Source: Frankiaceae bacterium (GTDB lineage: Bacteria; Actinomycetota; Actinomycetes; Frankiales; Frankiaceae). From it: a DNA stretch of 34,850 bases. A program made the translations under genes and the position numbers. The notes below the pieces were generated by a model. That model did no database searches. It saw only the letters and a list, made by a program, of their open reading frames with translations, and was not told the origin of the DNA. Position 1 is the stretch's first letter. Each line of letters starts with the position of its first letter. This document shows positions 30,852 through 34,780 of this stretch, in pieces. The stretch lies in assembly GCA_017882765.1 (NCBI GenBank), contig JADGOW010000003.1, positions 1 to 34,850 of the forward strand, read 5' to 3'.

Positions 30852-31956
30852 GGACGACCCCGGCCGGCAGGGCGACGAGGCCCGGCGCGTTCTCGCGGAC
30901 TACCGTGCCAGACTTCCGGACCACTTCGCTGCGCCCGAGGTGATCGAGCGCGCACGGGCCATCGAGGCGGGCACCGTCGTCCCCCCGGTGCCACGGCATG
31001 CGGCCACGGTCGTCCTGCTGCGGGATGCGTCCCGGGGCGGCGTCGAGGCCTACCTGCTGCGACGGGTCGGGACGCTCGCGTTCGCTGCCGGGATGTATGT
31101 GTTCCCCGGCGGTGGGGTCGACTCCGAGGACGCCCGGACCGAGATCGGCTGGGTGGGCCCGGCGCCGGAGGAGTGGTCGGTCGCTTTGCGCGCGGACGCA
31201 CCCCTGGCCCGCGCCCTCGTCTGCGCGGCCGTCCGCGAAACGTTCGAGGAGTCGGGCGTGCTGCTGGCCGGCCCTTCCCCGACGAAGGTGGCCGACGTCT
31301 CCGACCTCGCCTGGGAACGGGATCGGGTGGCCCTCGAGCAGCACAAGGCCCACCTCGCGGGCCTGCTGGCCCACCGCGGCCTGATGCTGCGGGCGGACCT
31401 GTTGCGCCCGTGGGCGCATTGGGTCACCCCGGAGGTTGAGCCGCGCCGCTACGACACCCGCTTCTTCGTCGCTGCCCTCCCTGCCGGCCAGACCACGCGA
31501 GAGGTCGGCGGCGAGGCCGACCGGGCGGTCTGGCTTGCCCCGCAGGAGGCACTGGACCGGCTGCGCCGCGGGGAGTTGACCATGCTCCCCCCGACGGCCT
31601 TCACGTTGGCGGAGCTGACCGCCTACCCGAACGTGGCCGCCGTGGTCGCGGCGGCGCAACGGCGCGACATCGCCCCCGTGCTGCCCCGGATCGTGGTGAG
31701 CGGCGACGAGGCGCGCCTGCTGCTGCCCCACGATGACGCCGGCGACGTGCCCAGTCGGTCCGGTCCGGCCAGCCCCGAAAAGCCCGGCGGCCCCCAGGGT
31801 CCGGGCAGCCCCCCAAAGCCCGGCGGCGCCCAGGGCCCCGGCGGCCCCCAGGGTCCCGGCGGCCGACAGGGTCCCGCCGGCCCCCACGGTCCCGGCCGCC
31901 CCGACCGTCCCGGCGGTCCCATTGGCCCCGAACCGGACGCAACGCGGGATGCCTGA
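30844..31956 (+). CDS. NUDIX hydrolase (NUDT19-like long insert) with collagen-like C-terminal tail
   Basis: [15 protein letters not shown]...[18 protein letters not shown]; 8-bp overlap with ridA; tail [36 protein letters not shown]. Confidence 0.88.
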
Positions 31957-32809
31957 CCCACGGGCTCGCGTCGTGCTCGCGCCCAATCCGGGGCCGCTGA
32001 CCCTGGAAGGCACCAATACCTACGTTCTGTGCAGGCCGGGCGGGCGCGGTGCCGTGGTCGTCGACCCCGGGCCGGACGACCCGGCGCACCTGGCGGCGAT
32101 CGCGCAGGAGGCGGCGAACGGCGGCCAGCGCATCGAGCTGATCCTGCTCACCCACGGGCACGAAGACCACAGCGCCGGTGCGCCCGCCCTGGCCCGGCGC
32201 ACCGGGGTGCCCGTCCGGGCGCTGGACCCGGCGCACCGGCTGGGCTCCGAGGGTCTCGGAGACGGGGACGTGGTGACCGTGGACGGCCTGGAGATCCGGG
32301 TGGTCGCCACGCCGGGGCACAGCGGGGATTCCCTGTGTTTCCTCCTTCCGGCCGCAGGAGACGGCGCCGCGGCTGGTTCGAGCCGCGCGGTGCTCACCGG
32401 GGACACAGTTCTCGGGCGTGGGACAAGTGTGGTCGCCCACCCCGACGGCCGCCTCCGTGACTACCTGGACACCCTCTGCCGCCTCCGTGACCTCGGCGAC
32501 ACCCTCGTGCTACCCGGCCACGGCCCGGAGTTGCCCTCGGCCGGCCAGATCGCCCAGCAGTACCTGCAGCACCGGCAGGCGCGCCTGGAGCAGGTTCGGG
32601 CCGCGCTGCGCGCCAGAGCCGGAGCCGGAGCCGGAGCCGGAGTGGGAGTGGGCACCGGAGCGGAAGGCGGGCAGCGGGAGCCGGTGGGGGACATCGTCGA
32701 GTCCGTCGTGGCGACGGTGTACGCCGACGTGGACCGGTCGCTGTGGCCGGCTGCTGCGCTGTCGGTGCGCGCCCAACTCGACTACCTGGCGGAACGGCCA
32801 GCACGCTGA
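31949..32809 (+). CDS. MBL-fold metallohydrolase
   Basis: [12 protein letters not shown]...[14 protein letters not shown]...[16 protein letters not shown]...[13 protein letters not shown]; 8-bp overlap with the NUDIX gene. Confidence 0.95.
32616..32652 (+). repeat. Hexamer microsatellite inside the MBL gene encoding (GA)n(GV)n
   Basis: ggagccggagccggagccggagtgggagtggg. Confidence 0.9.
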
Positions 32810-32825: not shown

Positions 32826-33503
32826 TCAGCGCGCGCGGCGGGCGAGCCGATCCGGATCGAGCAGGATCACCGCCCGCGAGTCGAGCCGCAGCCATCCCCG
32901 GCTGGCGAAGTCGGCCAACGCCTTGTTCACCGTCTCCCGGGACGCGCCGACGTATTGGGCAAGCTCTTCCTGGGTCAGGCCGTGCTCGACCCTGGTGCCG
33001 GGCCCGGGCCCAGGCGAGGAAAACTTCTGCGCCAGGTCGAGCAGCGCCTTCGCGACCCGGCCGGGAACGTCGGTGAAGACGAGATCGGCCATGGCTTCGT
33101 TGGTACGGCGCAGTCGCCGCGCCAACACCTGCAGGAGCCGCATGGCTGCCTGCGGGCGGGAGGCCAGCCAGGGCGGGAGGGCGGCATGGTCGAGGGTCGC
33201 GACCTCGATGTCGGTGAGGGCGGTGGCGGTCGCGGTTCGGGGACCGGGATCGAACAGGGACAGCTCGCCGAACAGCTCCCCGGGCCCCAGCAGCGCCAGT
33301 AGGTTCTCCCGCCCGTCGGCGGCGGCCCTGGTGATCTTTACCTTCCCGGCCAGGACCAAATGGACGTTCTCGCCGCGGTCGCCCTCGGAGAACAGCACGG
33401 TGCCCCGCTTCGCGCTTCGCCTGGTGAGCTGGTGTGCGAGAGCCTGCCGATCTTCCTCGGAGAGGCCGGAGAACAACTTCATCCGCGCGAGGAGTTCGTC
33501 CAC
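32826..33503 (-). CDS. crp: CRP/FNR-family transcriptional regulator
   Basis: cNMP domain GTVLFSEGDRGENVHLVLAGKVKIT...LGPGELFGELSLFDPGPRTATATAL; HTH HGLTQEELAQYVGASRETVNKALADFASRGWLRLD. Confidence 0.95.
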   Translation of the reverse strand: MDELLARMKLFSGLSEEDRQALAHQLTRRSAKRGTVLFSEGDRGENVHLVLAGKVKITRAAADGRENLLALLGPGELFGELSLFDPGPRTATATALTDIEVATLDHAALPPWLASRPQAAMRLLQVLARRLRRTNEAMADLVFTDVPGRVAKALLDLAQKFSSPGPGPGTRVEHGLTQEELAQYVGASRETVNKALADFASRGWLRLDSRAVILLDPDRLARRAR

Positions 33504-33569: not shown

Positions 33570-33842
33570 TCAGCTGCCCGAGGGTTCCATCTGGGCTGCG
33601 ATGGACTCACCGGACGGTTCCGTGCGCCAGTAGGTGTCCAGGGCTGTTGCGAAGTGTTCGGTGACGAGAGCCTCCAGTTCGTCGGGCGTCCCGGCCTCCT
33701 GCGGCTGCTGCTCAGGCGGGAGGGCCTGCACCTGCTGCCGGCCGCCCAGGGGCTGCTCCACCTGCTCCATCAGCAGGAGGAGGAGCAACAGGAGCAGTGG
33801 GAACGCAAACGGCAACAGCACGGCTACCCCCGGCGTGCTCAT
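33570..33842 (-). CDS. Small single-TM protein with poly-Leu segment
   Basis: MSTPGVAVLLPFAFPLLLLLLLLLMEQVEQPLGG...; hydrophobic N-terminus, short acidic tail. Confidence 0.5.
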   Translation of the reverse strand: MSTPGVAVLLPFAFPLLLLLLLLLMEQVEQPLGGRQQVQALPPEQQPQEAGTPDELEALVTEHFATALDTYWRTEPSGESIAAQMEPSGS

Positions 33843-33939: not shown

Positions 33940-34662
33940 TTAGGTCCGGCGGGAACGCCCGGCCGCCGGCTTGGCCTGCGGTGCTGAGACCGGAAGGGCC
34001 ACCAGGCACGCGTTCGGGTTCTCGCGGTAGCGAGCCACCAGCTCCGCCGTCACGGCGTCAATCTTTTCGTGCAAGCTGCGCCGATAGTGCGAAAGCTCGG
34101 ACTCCGCGTCCTCCAGGTCCCGCTCCAGAGCCGCGACCCTCTCGGGGTCGTCGATCGGTGTGGCCATCTCCCAGAGTCGGCCCAGGTCAGGCAGCGGCGG
34201 AATGTCGCTGATCGGCAGGAACGAGACGAGGGCGATTCGGCCCTTGTTCATCCGTTCGGTCGTCAGCACCGGCCGCAGTGCCGCCACGTCCGCCGTCCGG
34301 ACGTTCTCCCGCTCGCGGACGGTGTCCAGCTTCGCCTGCAGGATGCGGCGCCAATACGAGACCCGCTGCTCCTCCGCCATCAGCGCTTGCCGGAAATGCC
34401 GCAGATGGGGCAGATCGAGGTGGGCGTACTCGGGCTTGCGCTTCGGCGGAACGGATCGTGCAGCGGCCCTGGCCGCGGCGCGAGCAGCGCGGGCCTTCGC
34501 GCGGTCGTCCGGGTCCTTGATCGACACGCTGTTGCCACCCGGCGTCGCGGTGTCGTCGCGTTCCACCGGCGCAGGCGTCTGCGCCGCCAGGCTCGGCTCC
34601 CCGTGTTCGGGGCCGGGTGCCGGCGGGACGGGGATCTCGCCGCGTGACATCGGCTTGTCCAC
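33940..34662 (-). CDS. rsiG: RsiG-like coiled-coil protein (candidate c-di-GMP-dependent anti-sigma factor)
   Basis: Exact E(X)3S(X)2R(X)3Q(X)3D in EQRVSYWRRILQAKLD and a near-exact second copy ESELSHYRRSLHEKID (Q to H). Confidence 0.8.
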   Translation of the reverse strand: MDKPMSRGEIPVPPAPGPEHGEPSLAAQTPAPVERDDTATPGGNSVSIKDPDDRAKARAARAAARAAARSVPPKRKPEYAHLDLPHLRHFRQALMAEEQRVSYWRRILQAKLDTVRERENVRTADVAALRPVLTTERMNKGRIALVSFLPISDIPPLPDLGRLWEMATPIDDPERVAALERDLEDAESELSHYRRSLHEKIDAVTAELVARYRENPNACLVALPVSAPQAKPAAGRSRRT

Positions 34663-34780
34663 GTGCTCCTCTTGAGACCGGGCGTTGGCGGCGTCAGATG
34701 CACCAGCCGCACCTAGCTACCGATAGGGGCATCGGGTGACAAGCCCAGGAGCTTGAGATCGCCCGCGTAGTCTCAGCCGG

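Follow-up and report, generated by a model that had tools for sequence, protein, structure and literature searches.

A second, hitherto undescribed RsiG clade, of candidate c-di-GMP-dependent anti-sigma factors, lies beside crp in many actinobacteria

The window analysed here, that is, the whole stretch of 34,850 nucleotides from contig JADGOW010000003.1 of a Frankiaceae bacterium, contains at positions 33940–34662 of the reverse strand a gene for a 240-amino-acid candidate twin-motif anti-sigma factor of the RsiG family, which we call rsiG2. The open reading frame has a GTG start codon with the sequence GAGGAG directly 5' of it. On the same strand lie an open reading frame for a small membrane protein of 90 amino acids (33570–33842) and then crp (32826–33503), which encodes a CRP/FNR-family cAMP-type regulator with cNMP_binding and HTH_Crp_2 domains, and a gene for an MBL-fold hydrolase (31900–32809, forward strand) is convergent with crp and belongs to the same conserved locus. 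The crp product matches the structures 3h3u/3d0s with 271 bits and 4cyd with 248 bits, and judged from these matches it is likely the orthologue of Mycobacterium tuberculosis CRP. The small membrane-anchored protein has no match in Pfam or NCBIfam; a phmmer search matched it to the protein in the same position at a related locus (L057), and the position is kept in several Frankiales-type relatives. Its place is that of Rv3675, next to M. tuberculosis crp. The earlier note on this DNA, made from the letters alone, had pointed to the CRP-type regulator as a neighbour, and this neighbourhood is conserved: in 54 of 67 named relatives RsiG2 is encoded at an nth-rsiG2-(small membrane protein)-crp locus, a few of these loci being cut by contig ends. 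In these relatives rsiG2 is divergent from nth and directed toward crp, sometimes with the membrane-protein gene between. The window shares the rsiG2-crp order, and its contig stops before nth.

Two motifs of the c-di-GMP type are recognized in the predicted protein, at the codons where the earlier note had read them. The N-terminal (alpha1) motif, EQRVSYWRRILQAKLD (residues 98–113; 34324–34371, reverse strand), fits E(X)3S(X)2R(X)3Q(X)3D exactly and is near-invariant across RsiG2, and in the C-terminal (alpha5) motif, ESELSHYRRSLHEKID (residues 187–202; 34057–34104, reverse strand), His replaces Gln. A six-frame scan of the whole window, with 353 open reading frames, gave one strict motif where 0.005 were expected and two of the form allowing Q or H where 0.035 were expected, and the two motifs never arose in 200,000 shuffles of the protein. 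The RsiG-type character proposed in the same note agrees with the Pfam model RsiG (PF22802), which matches the protein in two stretches with 72 bits (E 3.2e-20) against a cut-off of 27; NCBIfam gave no match. The best sequence match among solved structures is Streptomyces venezuelae RsiG (6pfj, E 1.5e-6). Membership of the RsiG family is near certain, and the protein carries two motifs in a single chain, unlike the single-motif Rubrobacter type.

An AlphaFold2 model built from 60 sequences (mean pLDDT 81.6, pTM 0.66) predicts two long helices, residues 84–117 and 173–214, each containing one motif and modelled with block pLDDT of about 90–96. Foldseek ranked RsiG (6pfv) at the top with a probability of 0.99, but with a weak E-value (0.03), a large rmsd and a TM-score of about 0.5 by target; the flexibility of a hairpin chain probably accounts for the poor E-value and rmsd. 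The model and the fold match are consistent with an antiparallel coiled coil, although they fall short of proof.

The host genome (3.0 Mb, 94% complete) also contains an ordinary twin-motif RsiG (L044, contig C262, 97 bits) with the motifs ETDLSYLRRLLQGRID and EAEVSAVRRRVQAVFD, and the gene in the window is therefore the second RsiG paralogue of this genome. A tree of 61 proteins resolved two clades with support of 100, separated by a long branch: RsiG1, which is the Streptomyces-type clade and contains L044, and RsiG2, which contains the protein of the window. A profile made for RsiG2 separates them cleanly, giving 99–234 bits to RsiG2 members, 217.6 bits to the protein of the window and at most 69 bits to RsiG1. 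RsiG2 was found in 68 of 297 sampled genomes of the class, mostly alongside RsiG1 and often with one WhiG. No named relatives were obtained by a single-protein search, and an alignment-based search yielded the 67 mentioned above, from Frankiaceae and Frankiales MAGs, Acidothermaceae, Nanopelagicales, Motilibacter and Nocardioides. Judged by its nearest relatives only, the host probably represents a novel Frankiaceae-like genus. Seven genomes of one family (f9: G008, G033, G051, G068, G084, G097 and G119) have two RsiG2 copies plus RsiG1. Three actinobacterial RsiG2 loci (L222, L180 and L185) come from records labelled Acidobacteria or Bifidobacterium breve, and these labels appear to be wrong.

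RsiG2 proteins share the signature E..VSYWRR..QARLD (helix 1) with LS.YR..LH (helix 5), together with a linker, DD(I/M)PPLPDL..LW, and a C-terminus, YRE.P.LCL.ALP, both of which are unlike those of RsiG1. The alpha1 region, the linker and the C-terminus are strongly conserved at 37–52% identity across many families, the conservation of alpha1 being partly circular, as alpha1 patterns served to collect the sequences; alpha5 is unaffected by this. At the alpha5 Q/H position, 67 of 77 RsiG2 sequences have His, ten have Phe and none has Gln, whereas Gln is present in 46 of 50 RsiG1 sequences. The substitution, which had been regarded as an asymmetry of this individual protein, is therefore a trait of the whole clade, and we reject the former view. 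The alpha5 Asp is present in 49 of 50 RsiG1 sequences and in 46 of 77 RsiG2 sequences, including that of the window, and has been lost in about 40% of the RsiG2 clade. In the published RsiG proteins, Q-to-H changes are common in the alpha1 motif, and His is able to make the same stacking contact (PMC8325347); the arrangement in RsiG2, with an exact alpha1 and His in alpha5, is the opposite.

A WhiG-like sigma factor, to which the earlier note had proposed that the gene couples c-di-GMP, is encoded in the genome (L009, 1429–2202, contig C129), as are 19 GGDEF domains. None of the findings that the earlier note had named as contradicting its proposal was obtained. This WhiG contains LVKYVAGRV and so retains KxxxGR (K57/G61/R62-type residues), the residues of WhiG that contact c-di-GMP in solved complexes, and it is divergent, scoring 212 bits compared with about 283 in relatives. 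WhiG scored over the cut-off in 62 of the 68 genomes with RsiG2, and in 97 of 103 genomes with any RsiG as against 8 of 194 without; the genomes compared are relatives and not independent, so that Fisher p-values overstate the certainty of this co-occurrence. The six exceptions comprise four genomes less than 95% complete and two with WhiG fragments only. RsiG2 adjoins or clusters with a WhiG-type sigma factor at L092, L143–L146, L222, L227 and L229 (directly beside it at L092, L222, L227 and L229), and shares a locus with one at L217. Every RsiG2-linked sigma factor with a readable region has KxxxGR. A second FliA/WhiG-like sigma factor of the host genome (L010, 1291–2217, reverse strand, contig C12) has no KxxxGR and no obvious RsiG partner; lacking these residues, it was set aside as the partner of RsiG2. 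Sigma factors of this second kind occur in a minority of the sampled genomes. In genome G030, a long-branch RsiG1-type protein (L106, L147) is located approximately 8 kb from a FliA-like sigma factor without KxxxGR.

In other lineages RsiG2 is linked to type IV pili. At ten Nocardioides loci and the four sampled loci of family f13, RsiG2 is encoded among type IV pilus genes that include pilT and pilB, and a WhiG-type sigma gene is present in the same stretch in all four of the f13 loci and in L217. At L144, the pilB product adjoining RsiG2 has an MshEN domain. The host genome has pilT and a gene for a PilB-like ATPase on separate contigs, and a search of it for PilM found none; we do not claim a complete type IV pilus for this organism.

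A putative WhiG/sigma-28-type promoter, TCAA-N16-CCCGATGC, is located at 34729–34756 of the reverse strand, 67 nt before the GTG of rsiG2; its sequence is TCAAGCTCCTGGGCTTGTCACCCGATGC. Promoters of this type are enriched 5' of rsiG2. With up to two mismatches, the published WhiG/sigma-28 consensus was found in 11 of 73 rsiG2 upstream regions, compared with 0.4 expected, and TCAA-N16-GCCGATGC, a consensus refined on the same upstream regions on which it was scored, in 33 of 64, compared with a mean of 0.9% and a maximum of 6.2% for letter-permuted patterns. The latter was absent from all 50 rsiG1 upstream regions, including 25 from RsiG2-type genomes; in the rsiG2 upstream regions, spacings of 14, 17 and 18 gave no comparable excess, and the reverse strand gave about 1%. 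Across the whole genome, the strict Rubrobacter consensus TAAA-N15-GCCGATAA (up to two mismatches) was not enriched, with 25 matches as against 20 in the backward control, and TCAA-N16-GCCGATGC (up to one mismatch) gave 37 as against 11; most of the matches checked for the latter are intragenic, and we therefore do not claim a genome-wide WhiG regulon. Two individual sites stand at the same distance, 8 nt, from the GTG that follows them: the one ahead of a PAS-GGDEF gene (L255, 3–1493, reverse strand, contig C3) matches TCAA-N16-GCCGATGC perfectly, and the one ahead of pilT (L285, 5764–6834, reverse strand, contig C175) near-perfectly, the short distance at pilT suggesting a leaderless transcript. 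This pilT (TIGR01420, 454 bits against 319) is away from any pilus cluster, and its contig also carries a GGDEF-EAL gene with a 7TM domain. In the RsiG2-bearing pilus clusters, perfect or near-perfect TCAA-N16-GCCGATRA sites stand 5' of pilM, pilB and pilin-like genes, and the published consensus has 16 matches compared with 2.3 expected.

Our preferred reading, probable at roughly 60%, is that RsiG2 is a further anti-WhiG factor, armed by c-di-GMP and under feedback, whose gene may be co-transcribed with crp. The RsiG family match, the two modelled helices with their motifs, the KxxxGR of the host's WhiG, the co-occurrence of RsiG with WhiG, the linkage to WhiG-type sigma genes in other lineages and the promoter enrichment speak for it; the binding of c-di-GMP and of WhiG, the use of the promoter and co-transcription with crp are inferred. 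Its two helices would fold back on each other to form an antiparallel coiled coil holding a c-di-GMP dimer, and once armed in this way the protein would use its own linker and tails to bind WhiG, keeping WhiG off RNA polymerase. If the WhiG-type promoter drives rsiG2, active WhiG would make more of its own inhibitor, in a c-di-GMP-gated negative feedback. The same promoter may also feed the downstream crp, which would tie regulation by cAMP-CRP to the c-di-GMP/WhiG switch; a WhiG-type promoter before rsiG2, beside crp, points to a switch with feedback in which two second messengers come together. Likely WhiG targets in the host genome would include the GGDEF gene and pilT. Against this anti-WhiG reading stand the ordinary RsiG already available for WhiG in most RsiG2 genomes, the loss, by some members of the clade, of the Asp in alpha5 that reads guanine, though it is kept in the window, and also the weak fold match, the lack of genome-wide enrichment of the strict consensus and the divergence of the WhiG of this genome. 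A broader proposal is more tentative, and we would sooner doubt it than rely on it: in many actinobacteria that have received little study, rsiG2, the membrane-protein gene and crp would form a conserved operon controlled by WhiG, through which c-di-GMP, by way of RsiG2 and WhiG, would set its own feedback and also how much of the cAMP receptor CRP is supplied, and in Nocardioides the same anti-sigma factor would run type IV pili.

The linker and C-terminus of RsiG2 correspond to the regions with which RsiG grips WhiG, and because they are unlike those of RsiG1 and the branch is long, its partner could differ from WhiG: RsiG2 would still bind c-di-GMP, with the coiled coil borrowed for a new target, be it a different sigma factor, CRP or some further protein. 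Its lasting linkage to crp, the ordinary RsiG present already and the further FliA/WhiG-like sigma factor on contig C12 would fit such a partner. However, the sigma factors linked to RsiG2 are of the WhiG type, with KxxxGR wherever this can be read, the C12 sigma factor is without it, a second FliA/WhiG-like sigma factor is absent from most genomes with RsiG2, and WhiG-type promoters stand 5' of rsiG2, so that we regard a non-WhiG partner as unlikely. Less probable still is a modulation of ordinary RsiG, in which RsiG2, as a weak decoy, would compete either for c-di-GMP or for the surface of WhiG, freeing WhiG or tuning the threshold. The usual coexistence with RsiG1, often with one WhiG, and the alpha5 site that is degenerate in many RsiG2 would accord with a decoy, and production tied to WhiG-type promoters is expected of a feedback element; but the alpha1 site is near-invariant, and in the sampled Nocardioidaceae-type genomes, which keep a WhiG-type sigma factor, RsiG2 is the only RsiG detected and must act without RsiG1. 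It is very improbable that RsiG2 is merely a duplicate, redundant or in decay, that its linkage to crp has preserved, for although the alpha5 Asp is lost in some members and one copy at the nth-crp locus is degenerate (L088, in G030), the alpha1, linker and C-terminal sequences and the rsiG2 promoter are conserved, and several lineages retain RsiG2 as their only RsiG.

An anti-WhiG factor made under WhiG would resemble FlgM, the anti-sigma factor of a sigma-28-type factor, which is expressed from that factor's own promoters; FlgM is controlled by export, binds no nucleotide and is unrelated to RsiG2 in sequence. The wide occurrence of RsiG2 in genomes that often have one WhiG raises the question of how a single sigma factor would be divided between two inhibitors that are armed by a nucleotide, and its linkage to crp offers a place where the c-di-GMP and cAMP systems could meet physically. 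The pilus-linked form of RsiG2 occurs in culturable Nocardioides strains, which are available for testing it.

RsiG-WhiG was described in 2021 as the sole pair of sigma and anti-sigma factors on which c-di-GMP acts, and the survey of that year, covering 134 genomes, reported one RsiG per genome and a single case of a second copy, in Acidothermus cellulolyticus (PMC8325347). That second copy may itself be RsiG2, by analogy with the Acidothermaceae MAGs that carry RsiG2 (L167 and L168). The twin-motif RsiG of S. venezuelae (AmfC; 6pfj/6pfv; PMC8325347) resembles RsiG2 in its two E3S2R3[Q/H]3D motifs, its two long helices, its Pfam family and its co-occurrence with a KxxxGR-bearing WhiG. In contrast, RsiG2 forms a separate clade with another linker and C-terminus, has His for Gln in alpha5, has motifs spaced 89 residues apart (about 97–112 in sampled RsiG1), and is located beside crp or in pilus clusters with a WhiG-type promoter upstream. 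Rubrobacter RsiG (7lq2–7lq4; PMC8325347) has one motif and forms a homodimer, whereas RsiG2 has two motifs per chain; the links of Rubrobacter RsiG to WhiG, to type IV pili and to GGDEF genes under WhiG-type promoters closely parallel those of RsiG2. In Rubrobacter, WhiG promoters serve pili and GGDEF/EAL genes, and the Nocardioides-type RsiG2 circuit would parallel the Rubrobacter WhiG circuit.
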